The notes under the pieces are model-generated. The model worked only from the letters and a program-made list of their open reading frames with translations, was not told the DNA's origin and did no database searches. The translations under genes and the position numbers were made by a program. From NCBI RefSeq assembly GCF_003938655.1, contig NZ_RJJT01000014.1:62001-126000 (forward strand): 64,000 nucleotides of DNA, read 5' to 3'. The DNA is from Rhizobium pisi. GTDB taxonomy: Bacteria > Pseudomonadota > Alphaproteobacteria > Rhizobiales > Rhizobiaceae. This document shows, one piece after another, positions 24,914 to 27,618 of the stretch; position 1 is the stretch's first letter, and each line of letters starts with the position of its first letter.

Positions 24914-25417
24914 CTATGCCGGGCACTTGTCGGTATTCGAAAAATCGACGCTGCCATCAGGCTTGAAGACCTCCGGGTTCTTGTCATAAAGCGCACCAAC
25001 GACGAGCGGCTTGCTTGGCAGGACGGTCTGGTCGAGGTCGGACCGGAACTGCGTCTTCAACTCCTGAAGCACCTTGCCATCCTTATCCACCAGCCGGACA
25101 TTCACCGAATAGGGACGGTCCTTGCGCACGCAGTGCAGATTTTCGCTCTGCAGCGCGATCTTGTCGTCGATCGGATAGATTTTCTGGTTCAGCACCAGCG
25201 GATCGCCACCCTGCGGGTTTTCGAATTCGGCGATGATGACGGACCCATCGGGGATGGGGCCGGTCTTCTTCAGCGTCAGCAGATAGGTGGCGGTCGCCAC
25301 GCGATAGTTGAAAACGAAGAGATGGCCGGTGACCTCGACCAGATTTTCGGCCTGGCGCTGGCAGGCGGCAAGCAGAAGGCCGATTGCTGCCGCCGCTACG
25401 ATCATGTGTTTCCTCAT
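24914..25417 (-). CDS. Putative lipoprotein of unknown function
   Basis: A 167-aa protein with a clear lipoprotein signal: MRKHMIVAAAAIGLLLAAC, lipobox LLAAC with cysteine 19. The mature part is beta-rich (VTGHLFVFNYRVATATYLLTL) with a single later Cys pair (C near 110 and near 165). I do not recognise the family. The ATG at 25417 has AGGAGGAGA upstream and overlaps the stop of the CGNR regulator by four bases, so the two are cotranscribed and probably coupled. Its role may relate to the permease across the shared operator, which is inference only. Confidence 0.75.
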   Translation of the reverse strand: MRKHMIVAAAAIGLLLAACQRQAENLVEVTGHLFVFNYRVATATYLLTLKKTGPIPDGSVIIAEFENPQGGDPLVLNQKIYPIDDKIALQSENLHCVRKDRPYSVNVRLVDKDGKVLQELKTQFRSDLDQTVLPSKPLVVGALYDKNPEVFKPDGSVDFSNTDKCPA

Positions 25418-25959
25418 GGCGTCTCCTCCTTCTTGCGGCGATAATGCCGGTTCGCCTTGGCGCGGTTGCCGCAGACCGCCATGTCGCACCAGGCGCGGCT
25501 CCTGTTCTTGCTTCGATCGATGAACAGCCAGCCGCAATTGCCGCAGATCTTCATACGTTCCGGGTCGGGCATGGCGATCAGCCGGAGCACTGAATGGGCG
25601 GTTGCGGCGGCCAGATTGCCGGAGCTTGTGCCACGCAACGTCTTCGCCAGCGCCTTCAGCAGACCGGCCAGCAATTGGTCGTCGTTGCCATCAAGTATAC
25701 GCTTGCGGAAATAGAGGTCGATCGCTTCCCGCAAGGCGATAAAATCCACCTCCTGTTCCGGCGTTACCGGCGCGATGTCGCCGAAGAGGGCGCGTTCGGC
25801 GCAGAATTCCGCGGCAGCGTGCGGGAAACTGCGCATCTGGTCCCTGACCGCGAAACGGTCGATCCGGCGCGTCGTATCGTGGCGCAGCACGACGCTGTTG
25901 GCGACATCGAGCGCCAGCGCGCCGCCGGAGAAGCGGTGAGGGGTCCAGGAAAAGCTCAT
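25414..25959 (-). CDS. CGNR zinc-finger transcription regulator
   Basis: A 181-aa protein with an N-terminal ABATE-type ligand domain (GGALALDVANSVVLRHD) and a C-terminal CGNR zinc finger with cysteines in CGNCGWLF and the AVCGNRAKANRHYRRKK tail. Such proteins are predicted DNA-binding regulators. ATG at 25959 is chosen; the ORF extends to 25986 but this would overlap the palindrome. A 42-bp near-perfect palindrome begins four bases before the start codon, suggesting autoregulation. The lipoprotein gene overlaps its end. Confidence 0.86.
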   Translation of the reverse strand: MSFSWTPHRFSGGALALDVANSVVLRHDTTRRIDRFAVRDQMRSFPHAAAEFCAERALFGDIAPVTPEQEVDFIALREAIDLYFRKRILDGNDDQLLAGLLKALAKTLRGTSSGNLAAATAHSVLRLIAMPDPERMKICGNCGWLFIDRSKNRSRAWCDMAVCGNRAKANRHYRRKKEETP

Positions 25960-25962
25960 GCT

Positions 25963-26004
25963 GAAAATATAACTGGCTAAATGCATTTTACCAGTTATAT
26001 TTTC
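25963..26004. promoter_or_regulatory. 42-bp palindromic operator, CGNR gene / permease
   Basis: Two 14-bp arms (gaaaatataactgg at 25963-25976, ccagttatattttc at 25991-26004) are perfect inverted repeats around a 14-bp centre that is itself largely palindromic (aaatgcattt). Nineteen of 21 base pairs match. It fills nearly all the 65-bp gap between the divergent CGNR and permease start codons. It is AT-rich in a GC-rich region, and probably holds both promoters. The regulator binding it is presumably the CGNR protein; that is inferred from position. Confidence 0.75.
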
Positions 26005-26024
26005 AATGATCCGGAGTGTCTGGA

Positions 26025-26921
26025 ATGGCCTATCTCTTGCAGCAGCTGGCGAATGCGGTTCCGCTCGCGGCTCTCTATGCCACGCTCGCCTTCGGCTATG
26101 CCGTGGCCTTCGGCGTGACGAAGCGGGCAGACATCACCTATGGGGCAATTTTCGCCTTCTCGGGCCAGATCCTGCTGCTGTTCACCGAACTCGCTTATGT
26201 CAGATTCTGGCTGGTGCTGCCGGCGGCTCTTGCCATCGGCGCCTGCGCCTCCATCGTCTACTCGCTGGGCGCAGGCATATGGATCGGCCGCGCGATCATG
26301 ATGCCGCTGGTCAAAAAGTCGCCGAACACCGTCATCGTCGCCGCCCTCGGCATGATGATCGTGCTGATGGAGACCGCCCGGCTTGCCGCCGATACCCGGG
26401 CCATCTGGTTGCCGCCGTTCCTGAACGACGTCGTTGTCTTCTGGAGCGACGGTCTGTTCAAGGTGACGCTCACCTACATACAATTGATCGATACGGTGCT
26501 GATGTGCGCCGTCGTCGCGATCGGCGCGCTGATCCTCAGGCACACGGCCTGGGGTCGCATCTGGCGTGCCGTCACTGACGATCCGCTGGCCGCCGAGCTT
26601 TGCGGCACCAGCGCCAACCGCGTCTTTCTCGTCGCTTATGCGGCGGCCGCCCTCGTCGCCACGATCTGCGGCATCCTGGCGACCTTCTATTACGGCTCGA
26701 TGGATTTCGGTGCGGGCCTGATGTTCGGGCTCAAGGTGCTGCTGATCGCCGCTGTCGGCGGCTATTCCGATCCGCTGCGTTCGGCAGGCGGCGCTGCCGG
26801 GCTCGCCGTCGTCGAAACCCTATGGGGCGCCTATGGCCCCTTTGTCTGGCGGGATCTCGTGATCTTCTCGCTGCTCGTCCTGCTCCTGGTTATGAGCCGC
26901 AGGGAACGCGTTGTTCTCTGA
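26025..26921 (+). CDS. LivH-type ABC transporter permease, orphan
   Basis: A 298-aa integral membrane protein of the branched-chain amino-acid permease family (LivH) with about eight helices. Features include the N-terminal NAVPLAALYATLAFGYAVAFG and the late RAVTDDPLAAELCGTSANRVF coupling-type segment with GLKVLLIAAVGG. ATG at 26025 has GGAG nine bases upstream; GTG at 26016 is an alternative. No LivM, ATPase or binding-protein gene is next to it, so the complex partners must lie elsewhere. The stop abuts moaE tail to tail. Confidence 0.84.
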   Translation: MAYLLQQLANAVPLAALYATLAFGYAVAFGVTKRADITYGAIFAFSGQILLLFTELAYVRFWLVLPAALAIGACASIVYSLGAGIWIGRAIMMPLVKKSPNTVIVAALGMMIVLMETARLAADTRAIWLPPFLNDVVVFWSDGLFKVTLTYIQLIDTVLMCAVVAIGALILRHTAWGRIWRAVTDDPLAAELCGTSANRVFLVAYAAAALVATICGILATFYYGSMDFGAGLMFGLKVLLIAAVGGYSDPLRSAGGAAGLAVVETLWGAYGPFVWRDLVIFSLLVLLLVMSRRERVVL

Positions 26922-27444: not shown

Positions 27445-27618
27445 ACCCCCCTCTGTCCTGCCGGACATCTCCCCCACAAGGAGGGATATTACGGGCGGCT
27501 TGACCATCGTGCGCATCTACAGTTTTGCCGGGCTGCGACGTTGGTTTTTTGGGGAAGTTCGTGCTGCCAGCCAATCTCCCTCCTTGTGGGGGAGATGTCC
27601 GGCAGGACAGAGGGGGGT
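27445..27618. repeat. Palindromic intergenic element between moaD and moaE
   Basis: Two perfect 42-bp inverted arms (27445-27486 and 27577-27618) flank a 90-bp centre. The outer arm ends carry gtgccgtg on the left and cacggcac on the right, inverted with a two-base shift. The arms are rich in CCCCCTC and CTCCCCC. It has no coding capacity that looks real. It resembles small MITE-like or mosaic elements dispersed between rhizobial genes; family identity is not verified. Confidence 0.8.

Follow-up and report, generated by a model that had tools for sequence, protein, structure and literature searches.

A conserved unit of a CGNR regulator, a lipoprotein and an orphan LivH-like permease around a predicted palindromic operator in Rhizobiaceae

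Organization of the locus

The locus lies in a 64,000-nt stretch of the 6.67-Mb genome of Rhizobium pisi, referred to here as the window, and comprises three genes and a palindrome (Table 1). The gene for a CGNR zinc-finger regulator is coupled to that for a lipoprotein, the start codon of the lipoprotein (ATG, 25417-25415) and the stop codon of the regulator (TGA, 25416-25414) overlapping by 4 nt as ATGA, and a gene for a LivH-like permease diverges from this pair, with the palindrome in between. An initial annotation of this DNA had described both the coupling of regulator to lipoprotein and a 65-bp intergenic region holding a palindrome; the overlap bears out the first, and the second is correct for the starts ATG 25959 and ATG 26025.

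Table 1. Features of the locus, in window coordinates
Feature	Position	Strand	Remarks
Lipoprotein gene	24914..25417	-	167 aa; lipobox LAAC; predicted beta-sandwich ectodomain
CGNR zinc-finger regulator gene	25414..25959	-	181 aa from ATG 25959
Palindrome, predicted CGNR operator	25962..26005	.	44 bp
Operator core, TAACTGG..AAA-N4-TTT..CCAGTTA	25970..25997	.	28 bp, conserved
TATATT, possible -10 box of CGNR	25966..25971	-	6 nt before CGNR ATG; from reading of the sequence
TATATT, possible -10 box of permease	25996..26001	+	from reading of the sequence
Orphan LivH-like permease gene	26025..26921	+	298 aa from ATG 26025; GTG 26016 is an alternative start

A GST-like gene and ndk flank the locus on one side, and moaE, moaD, pgsA and uvrC on the other (the GST-like gene and moaE assigned by Pfam, the other four by reading the translations). 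As stated in the initial annotation, neither the translations nor Pfam showed a LivM, an ATPase or a binding protein among the flanking genes, and by its position the permease is an orphan. Since ndk and moaE serve other functions, the three-gene group stands alone. Between moaE and moaD there are two identical 30-bp copies in inverted orientation (GGGGGAGATGTCC..., at 27446-27475 and 27588-27617), with no further copies in the window at up to 3 mismatches; they resemble the Rhizobium intergenic mosaic element.

Conservation of the three-gene unit

The initial annotation had staked its reading on this adjacency being conserved in related genomes, and it is: all three genes were found in divergent arrangement in 124 of 125 Rhizobiaceae loci, with the regulator present in 125, the permease in 124 and the lipoprotein in 124. 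The 125 loci comprise 64 from the same genus, picked by a permease match (L010-L073), and 61 from the family's other genera, selected through a CGNR match (L118-L178; 22 + 39), L179 being a 10-base filler row. Because each locus was picked by the match of one gene, the value of 124/125 is conditional on that gene being present. Of 90 genomes of the genus, 89 encode a close relative of the permease (70-94% identity, own sequence excluded), and the remaining one is an 82%-complete assembly (G003). Ranked by CGNR, the 80 closest named relatives were Rhizobium species or Rhizobiales isolates, and all three genes were present in 80/80 of their loci, a set that overlaps with the other loci examined. 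The unit is present in R. leguminosarum (R. johnstonii) 3841, a symbiont of pea nodules (L267).

The coupling of regulator and lipoprotein genes is likewise retained. Of 124 loci, 113 have the two genes overlapping or directly abutting (94 of them with an overlap of exactly 4 nt), nine have 1-60 nt between them, and two have a larger gap. Shortened permease matches were seen at L146 and L154. Across the family, CGNR was detected in 170/394 genomes, some of the matches being weaker, so the unit is common rather than universal. From these sequence comparisons, confidence in the unit and its conservation is very high.

The intergenic palindrome

The arms of the palindrome (25962-25983 and 25984-26005) are 22 nt each, have no spacer and pair at 20/22 positions (91% complementary). 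It had been described earlier as 42 bp with 19/21 pairs; its existence stands, and its size is corrected to 44 bp and 20/22. Within the 64-kb window it is the only centre with 20/22 pairs, the next best being one at 19 and two at 16, and on this ground a chance palindrome was rejected.

Its core has the form TAACTGGTAAAA-N4-TTTTACCAGTTA, with the consensus TAACTGGTAAAATGAATTTTACCAGTTA, and was kept in 122/124 of the family loci that have the permease, a site being counted as kept at 17 or more of 24 consensus positions; 86 of the 122 reach 22 or 23. Two family loci lacked a clear operator (L154, L172). The central four bases of the consensus carry 0.1-0.5 bits, against about 2 bits for each of the outermost 4-5. 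In 108 of the 120 loci measured, the core ends 9-11 nt before the CGNR start codon. The operator occurs once per genome in 98/100 same-genus genomes, among the matches listed, and a reversed control pattern matched in 8/100. It was absent from G027 at 3 mismatches and from G003, the incomplete assembly that is also without a close permease. A CGNR regulon within the genus was rejected, there being one site per genome among the matches listed, and in the window's genome the operator is not at the liv operon, which is on another contig (its genes assigned from motifs and visual inspection).

Similar sites accompany some of the more distant regulators. Outside the order, L244 has an operator-like site scoring 21/24 about 9 nt upstream of CGNR, and weaker sites (14-18/24) are found at similar positions in L216, L223, L234 and L245, outside the family; no convincing operator was detected near CGNR in L239 and L240. 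Of 300 random windows drawn per locus, which may overlap the site itself, 7-12 reached the score of the site in L216, L223, L234, L244 and L245, 3 did so in L239 and 113 in L240.

One family locus, L155 (2697-3480, in a 3.0-Mb genome), retains the order ndk, CGNR, palindrome and moaE (ndk and moaE identified by inspection of their translations), the palindrome still being paired at 19/21 positions, and lacks both the lipoprotein and the permease at this place. The absence of just these two genes from the locus links the site to CGNR, and the lipoprotein to the permease. L155 is also a natural deletion that could be used to ask what CGNR does alone.

The comparative evidence for an operator is strong, and the palindrome very probably belongs to CGNR. 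Its strong inverted repeat would also be expected of an RNA hairpin, a terminator or the end of a mobile element, a reading made highly improbable by the presence of one copy per genome among the matches listed and by the variable central four bases between fixed half-sites; no terminator-like site and no Rfam family was found, and a terminator or known RNA was rejected for this reason.

The -10-like sequences bear on how the site might act. Among the matches listed, most sites carry TATAAT or TATATT in an arm, which would put a -10 box some 6 nt ahead of the CGNR start codon and suggests a possibly leaderless mRNA. No complete sigma-70 promoter was detected by consensus scanning, which counts against the model favoured below and is what activator-dependent promoters would show. 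CGNR would in that case be an activator, with the palindrome recruiting RNA polymerase, but both arms overlap the -10-like boxes, the usual position of a repressor, and an activator is judged unlikely.

The CGNR regulator

The regulator matches zf-CGNR (PF11706) at 61.5 bits, against a Pfam cut-off of 24, and is the only zf-CGNR match found in the window's genome. Its start was set at ATG 25959 because this methionine is invariant in an alignment of 20 rows. The best solved relative, by sequence and by structure, is Jann_2411 (DUF1470, with ABATE and CGNR zinc finger domains; 3h0n). The sequence profile matched 3h0n at E 2.5e-6, the sole other match among solved structures having E 0.17, and the predicted model, which is weak (pLDDT 67.9), gave 3h0n as the top structural match (E 1.1e-3, the next being 1.0). 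The window protein differs in that its match to ABATE (PF07336; 16.5 bits) is under the cut-off of 24.4; CGNR proteins beside the unit elsewhere scored 71.9 (L245), 35.5 (L240) and 29.6 (L239).

The authors of the Jann_2411 structure proposed a ligand-dependent DNA-binding regulator (PMC2954205), and within the literature found the role of the CGNR family is a proposal from this one structure. The words palindrome, upstream and transporter are absent from the main text of that paper.

The orphan permease

The permease belongs to PF02653 (83.8 bits, cut-off 26.8) and scores below the cut-offs of both the LivH equivalog (88 bits against 379) and the equivalog of UrtB, the urea transporter permease (45.7 against 250.3). 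In an unrooted tree of 64 permeases, 19 canonical LivH proteins, all of which have an ATPase encoded no more than 5 kb away, grouped in a single long-stemmed clade supported at 100/100, and the window permease and the other orphans fell outside it, their status as a single clade depending on the root. Three residues, R37, W183 and R279 (numbered from GTG 26016), are common to orphan and fused permeases, the corresponding residues of canonical LivH being M, Q and K. Among 39 orphan permeases the best conserved 12-residue window is WGRIWRAVTDDP (0.69, against 0.68 for the next), a cytoplasmic loop which we take to be the ATPase-contact loop. A profile of the permease found no solved relative up to E 1. 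A decayed LivH copy was rejected, given the position outside the canonical clade and the conserved loop; the permease is not a stray LivH.

An ABC ATPase lies within 5 kb in 4 of 25 orphan or fused loci outside the family (L222, L224, L232, L240) when a looser motif is used, and the strict motif flags one of the 25. These four ATPases match PF00005 and are 25-30% identical to LivF and LivG. Those of L224, L232 and L240, which come from one genus, are 83-87% identical to each other and are encoded 2-5 kb from the permease-lipoprotein pair. The low identity to LivF and LivG, together with the mutual closeness of these three, leads us to read the ATPases as parts of other transporters, and the presence of an ABC ATPase of another kind in 4/25 loci counts against the model favoured below.

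Compared with the Liv/Bra system (livHMGFK / braDEFGC), the window permease has PF02653 and the cytoplasmic loop motif in common with LivH, but it lies outside the fully supported clade of the 19 canonical proteins, has no adjacent LivM, LivG/LivF or binding protein, and is linked to a lipoprotein.

The lipoprotein and its association with the permease

Pfam returned nothing for the lipoprotein up to E 0.1 except one match at 0.1, and none of its sequence-profile matches to solved structures was convincing (best E 0.15). Of 126 homologues, 118 match a simple lipobox pattern; the other eight, as listed, also have a cysteine there. The gene was found in 43/297 genomes of the order, and in 5 more among 385 genomes of the class. 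The predicted model (pLDDT 74.8) is a seven-strand sandwich. With residues 23-128, VIA-align gave its best matches to GH2 enzyme domains, presumably Ig-like, at a Z of about 10 and 7-17% identity, and the Foldseek list was mixed, with RhoGDI first (TM 0.36). The sandwich is a common fold and so gives no indication of function.

Outside the family, 36 genomes have the lipoprotein, of which 32 were taken as wide loci, leaving out G098 (a short contig, L075, which has the permease), G581, G669 and G675; in L219 and L220 a contig end is near the lipoprotein. In 18 of these 32 loci (19/33 when L075 is counted) the permease either adjoins the lipoprotein or has just CGNR in between. CGNR is nearby in only 7/32, which weighs against the favoured model. 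In family f23, permease and lipoprotein genes are co-directional in six loci, and overlap by 4 nt in four of these. In 17 genomes the lipoprotein is present and an orphan permease was not found, a further point against the model. Pfam scans of nine lipoprotein neighbours, two from L216 (which has the permease) and seven from L217, L219, L220, L221, L227 and L235, revealed no shared partner gene except the two Extensin-like genes of L216.

Six relatives of the permease (L248-L251, L351, L352) are fusions with 135-188 extra N-terminal residues, a part that carries a lipobox and a conserved two-cysteine domain and that gave no Pfam match over cut-off in the four scanned. A profile alignment of this ectodomain with the lipoprotein spans the signal peptide only; kinship was not detectable beyond it. 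Without such detectable kinship, the fused domain looks like a parallel solution. From these comparisons it is probable, with good confidence, that the permease and the lipoprotein work together.

Genes of the same similarity group flank the lipoprotein in L216, L223, L228, L231 and L236 (families f14 and f21), and both of those in L216 are Extensin-like_C by Pfam.

Co-occurrence with Liv and a proposed mechanism

A close LivF was found in 44/44 genomes with the permease or the lipoprotein and in 16/47 genomes of the order with neither (Fisher p 8e-13 by genome), and kinship is handled in this statistic only by a tally by family (19/19 against 15/37, p 5e-6). The query was LivF of the window's genome, with matches counted below 1e-85; part of the set was searched at a looser threshold, and the best LivF matches there were all at or below 1.5e-105. 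In many genomes the scoring of LivF covered part of the first-look candidates, 56 at most. The 44 positives are made up of 21 genomes with the orphan permease, 4 + 2 with fused permeases, and 17 with the lipoprotein only. Two controls (G130 and G140) carry fused permeases and were moved to the positives, reducing the controls from 49 to 47. Absence of the lipoprotein from controls was judged by their absence from the 43 positives, among the matches listed, and absence of the orphan permease by the close-permease search. G111, with LivF and with neither permease nor lipoprotein, is in neither count; with it, the controls become 17/48. LivM was present in 26/26 genomes searched.

In families f14, f21 and f41 there is a single control genome each without the unit, and it is also without LivF; in f28 (G116) and f23 (G111), LivF is present and the unit absent. 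LivF without the unit, in 16 control genomes plus G111, counts against the favoured model. The unit appears, from these co-occurrences, to be retained by cells that have Liv, from which binding to Liv does not follow.

These data bear on the earlier suggestion of a small uptake or sensing unit. One conserved unit there is, but with LivF in 44/44 carriers of the permease or lipoprotein it is probably not self-sufficient, and an accessory or alternative subunit of Liv/Bra probably fits better than a stand-alone uptake unit. A self-contained receptor or carrier without an ATPase, in which the lipoprotein would capture a ligand on the outside for the permease to relay inward, either as such or as a signal, would agree with the lack of a recognised LivF/LivG-type ATPase near orphan or fused permeases outside the family and with the fusion of an ectodomain in six loci. 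It is nevertheless improbable, since the presumed ATPase-contact loop is the best conserved stretch of the permease and every carrier tested has LivF.

Alternatively, the lipoprotein could be an active modulator of the canonical Liv complex, with the orphan permease as its dedicated anchor or decoy. LivF occurs in 17/17 of the lipoprotein genomes in which no orphan permease was found, and in 16 of these 17 the best LivH-like match is beside LivF (in G703 they are on different contigs). In Rhizobiaceae, however, the permease is as regular as the lipoprotein (124/125 each) and has retained its cytoplasmic loop, and this role for the lipoprotein appears doubtful.

The model favoured here, given about even confidence as a whole, is that CGNR represses itself and the permease, and that the permease and lipoprotein serve Liv/Bra in trans. 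CGNR would bind the palindrome, probably as a dimer on the two TAACTGGTAAAA half-sites, and would repress two divergent promoters, its own, serving the CGNR-lipoprotein operon, and that of the permease. A small ligand would lift this repression, after which permease and lipoprotein would act jointly at the inner membrane, the lipoprotein as the periplasmic partner of the permease, and the permease would pair in trans with Liv/Bra parts, altering what is imported or when. The permease keeps the ATPase-type loop yet comes with none of the usual partners (LivM, LivG/LivF, binding protein), which makes such pairing in trans with Liv/Bra the most likely arrangement, and a partnership with Liv of this kind is credited with slightly less than even confidence. 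The comparisons support the unit, the predicted operator, the link between permease and lipoprotein, and the co-occurrence with Liv.

Relation to known systems

A precedent is BraC3, an orphan binding protein reported to work with the Bra membrane complex (PMC2978685). An orphan part working in trans with Bra is the same model as proposed here, the difference being that BraC3 is a binding protein, and here a membrane protein and a lipoprotein would be involved. In the same paper, uptake by an aapJ braD mutant of S. meliloti is at background, so that no other permease stood in for BraD, which argues against the favoured model; this result would be understandable if the strain lacked the unit, kept it repressed, or could not use it in place of BraD. 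Pea nodules depend on amino-acid transport through Aap and Bra (symbiotic auxotrophy; PMC2978685).

No description of the unit, or of any CGNR operator, was found in open-licence PubMed Central papers, in agreement with the initial annotation, which had considered the unit undescribed. The predicted operator provides a concrete DNA site with which to test a CGNR regulator and, if confirmed, this would be the first regulator of that type with a defined operator. An inducible alternative subunit, if true, would be a new way of retuning an ABC importer. More tentatively, a second alphaproteobacterial family of LivH-like permeases, with a dedicated lipoprotein or a fused ectodomain, might constitute an inducible alternative subunit of Liv/Bra that is switched by CGNR in rhizobia.

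Two minor observations concern the wider set of loci. The fused permease adjoins hemB in the four loci examined, and in G810, outside the order, two tandem lipoprotein homologues lie by one orphan permease (L243 7329-8713).
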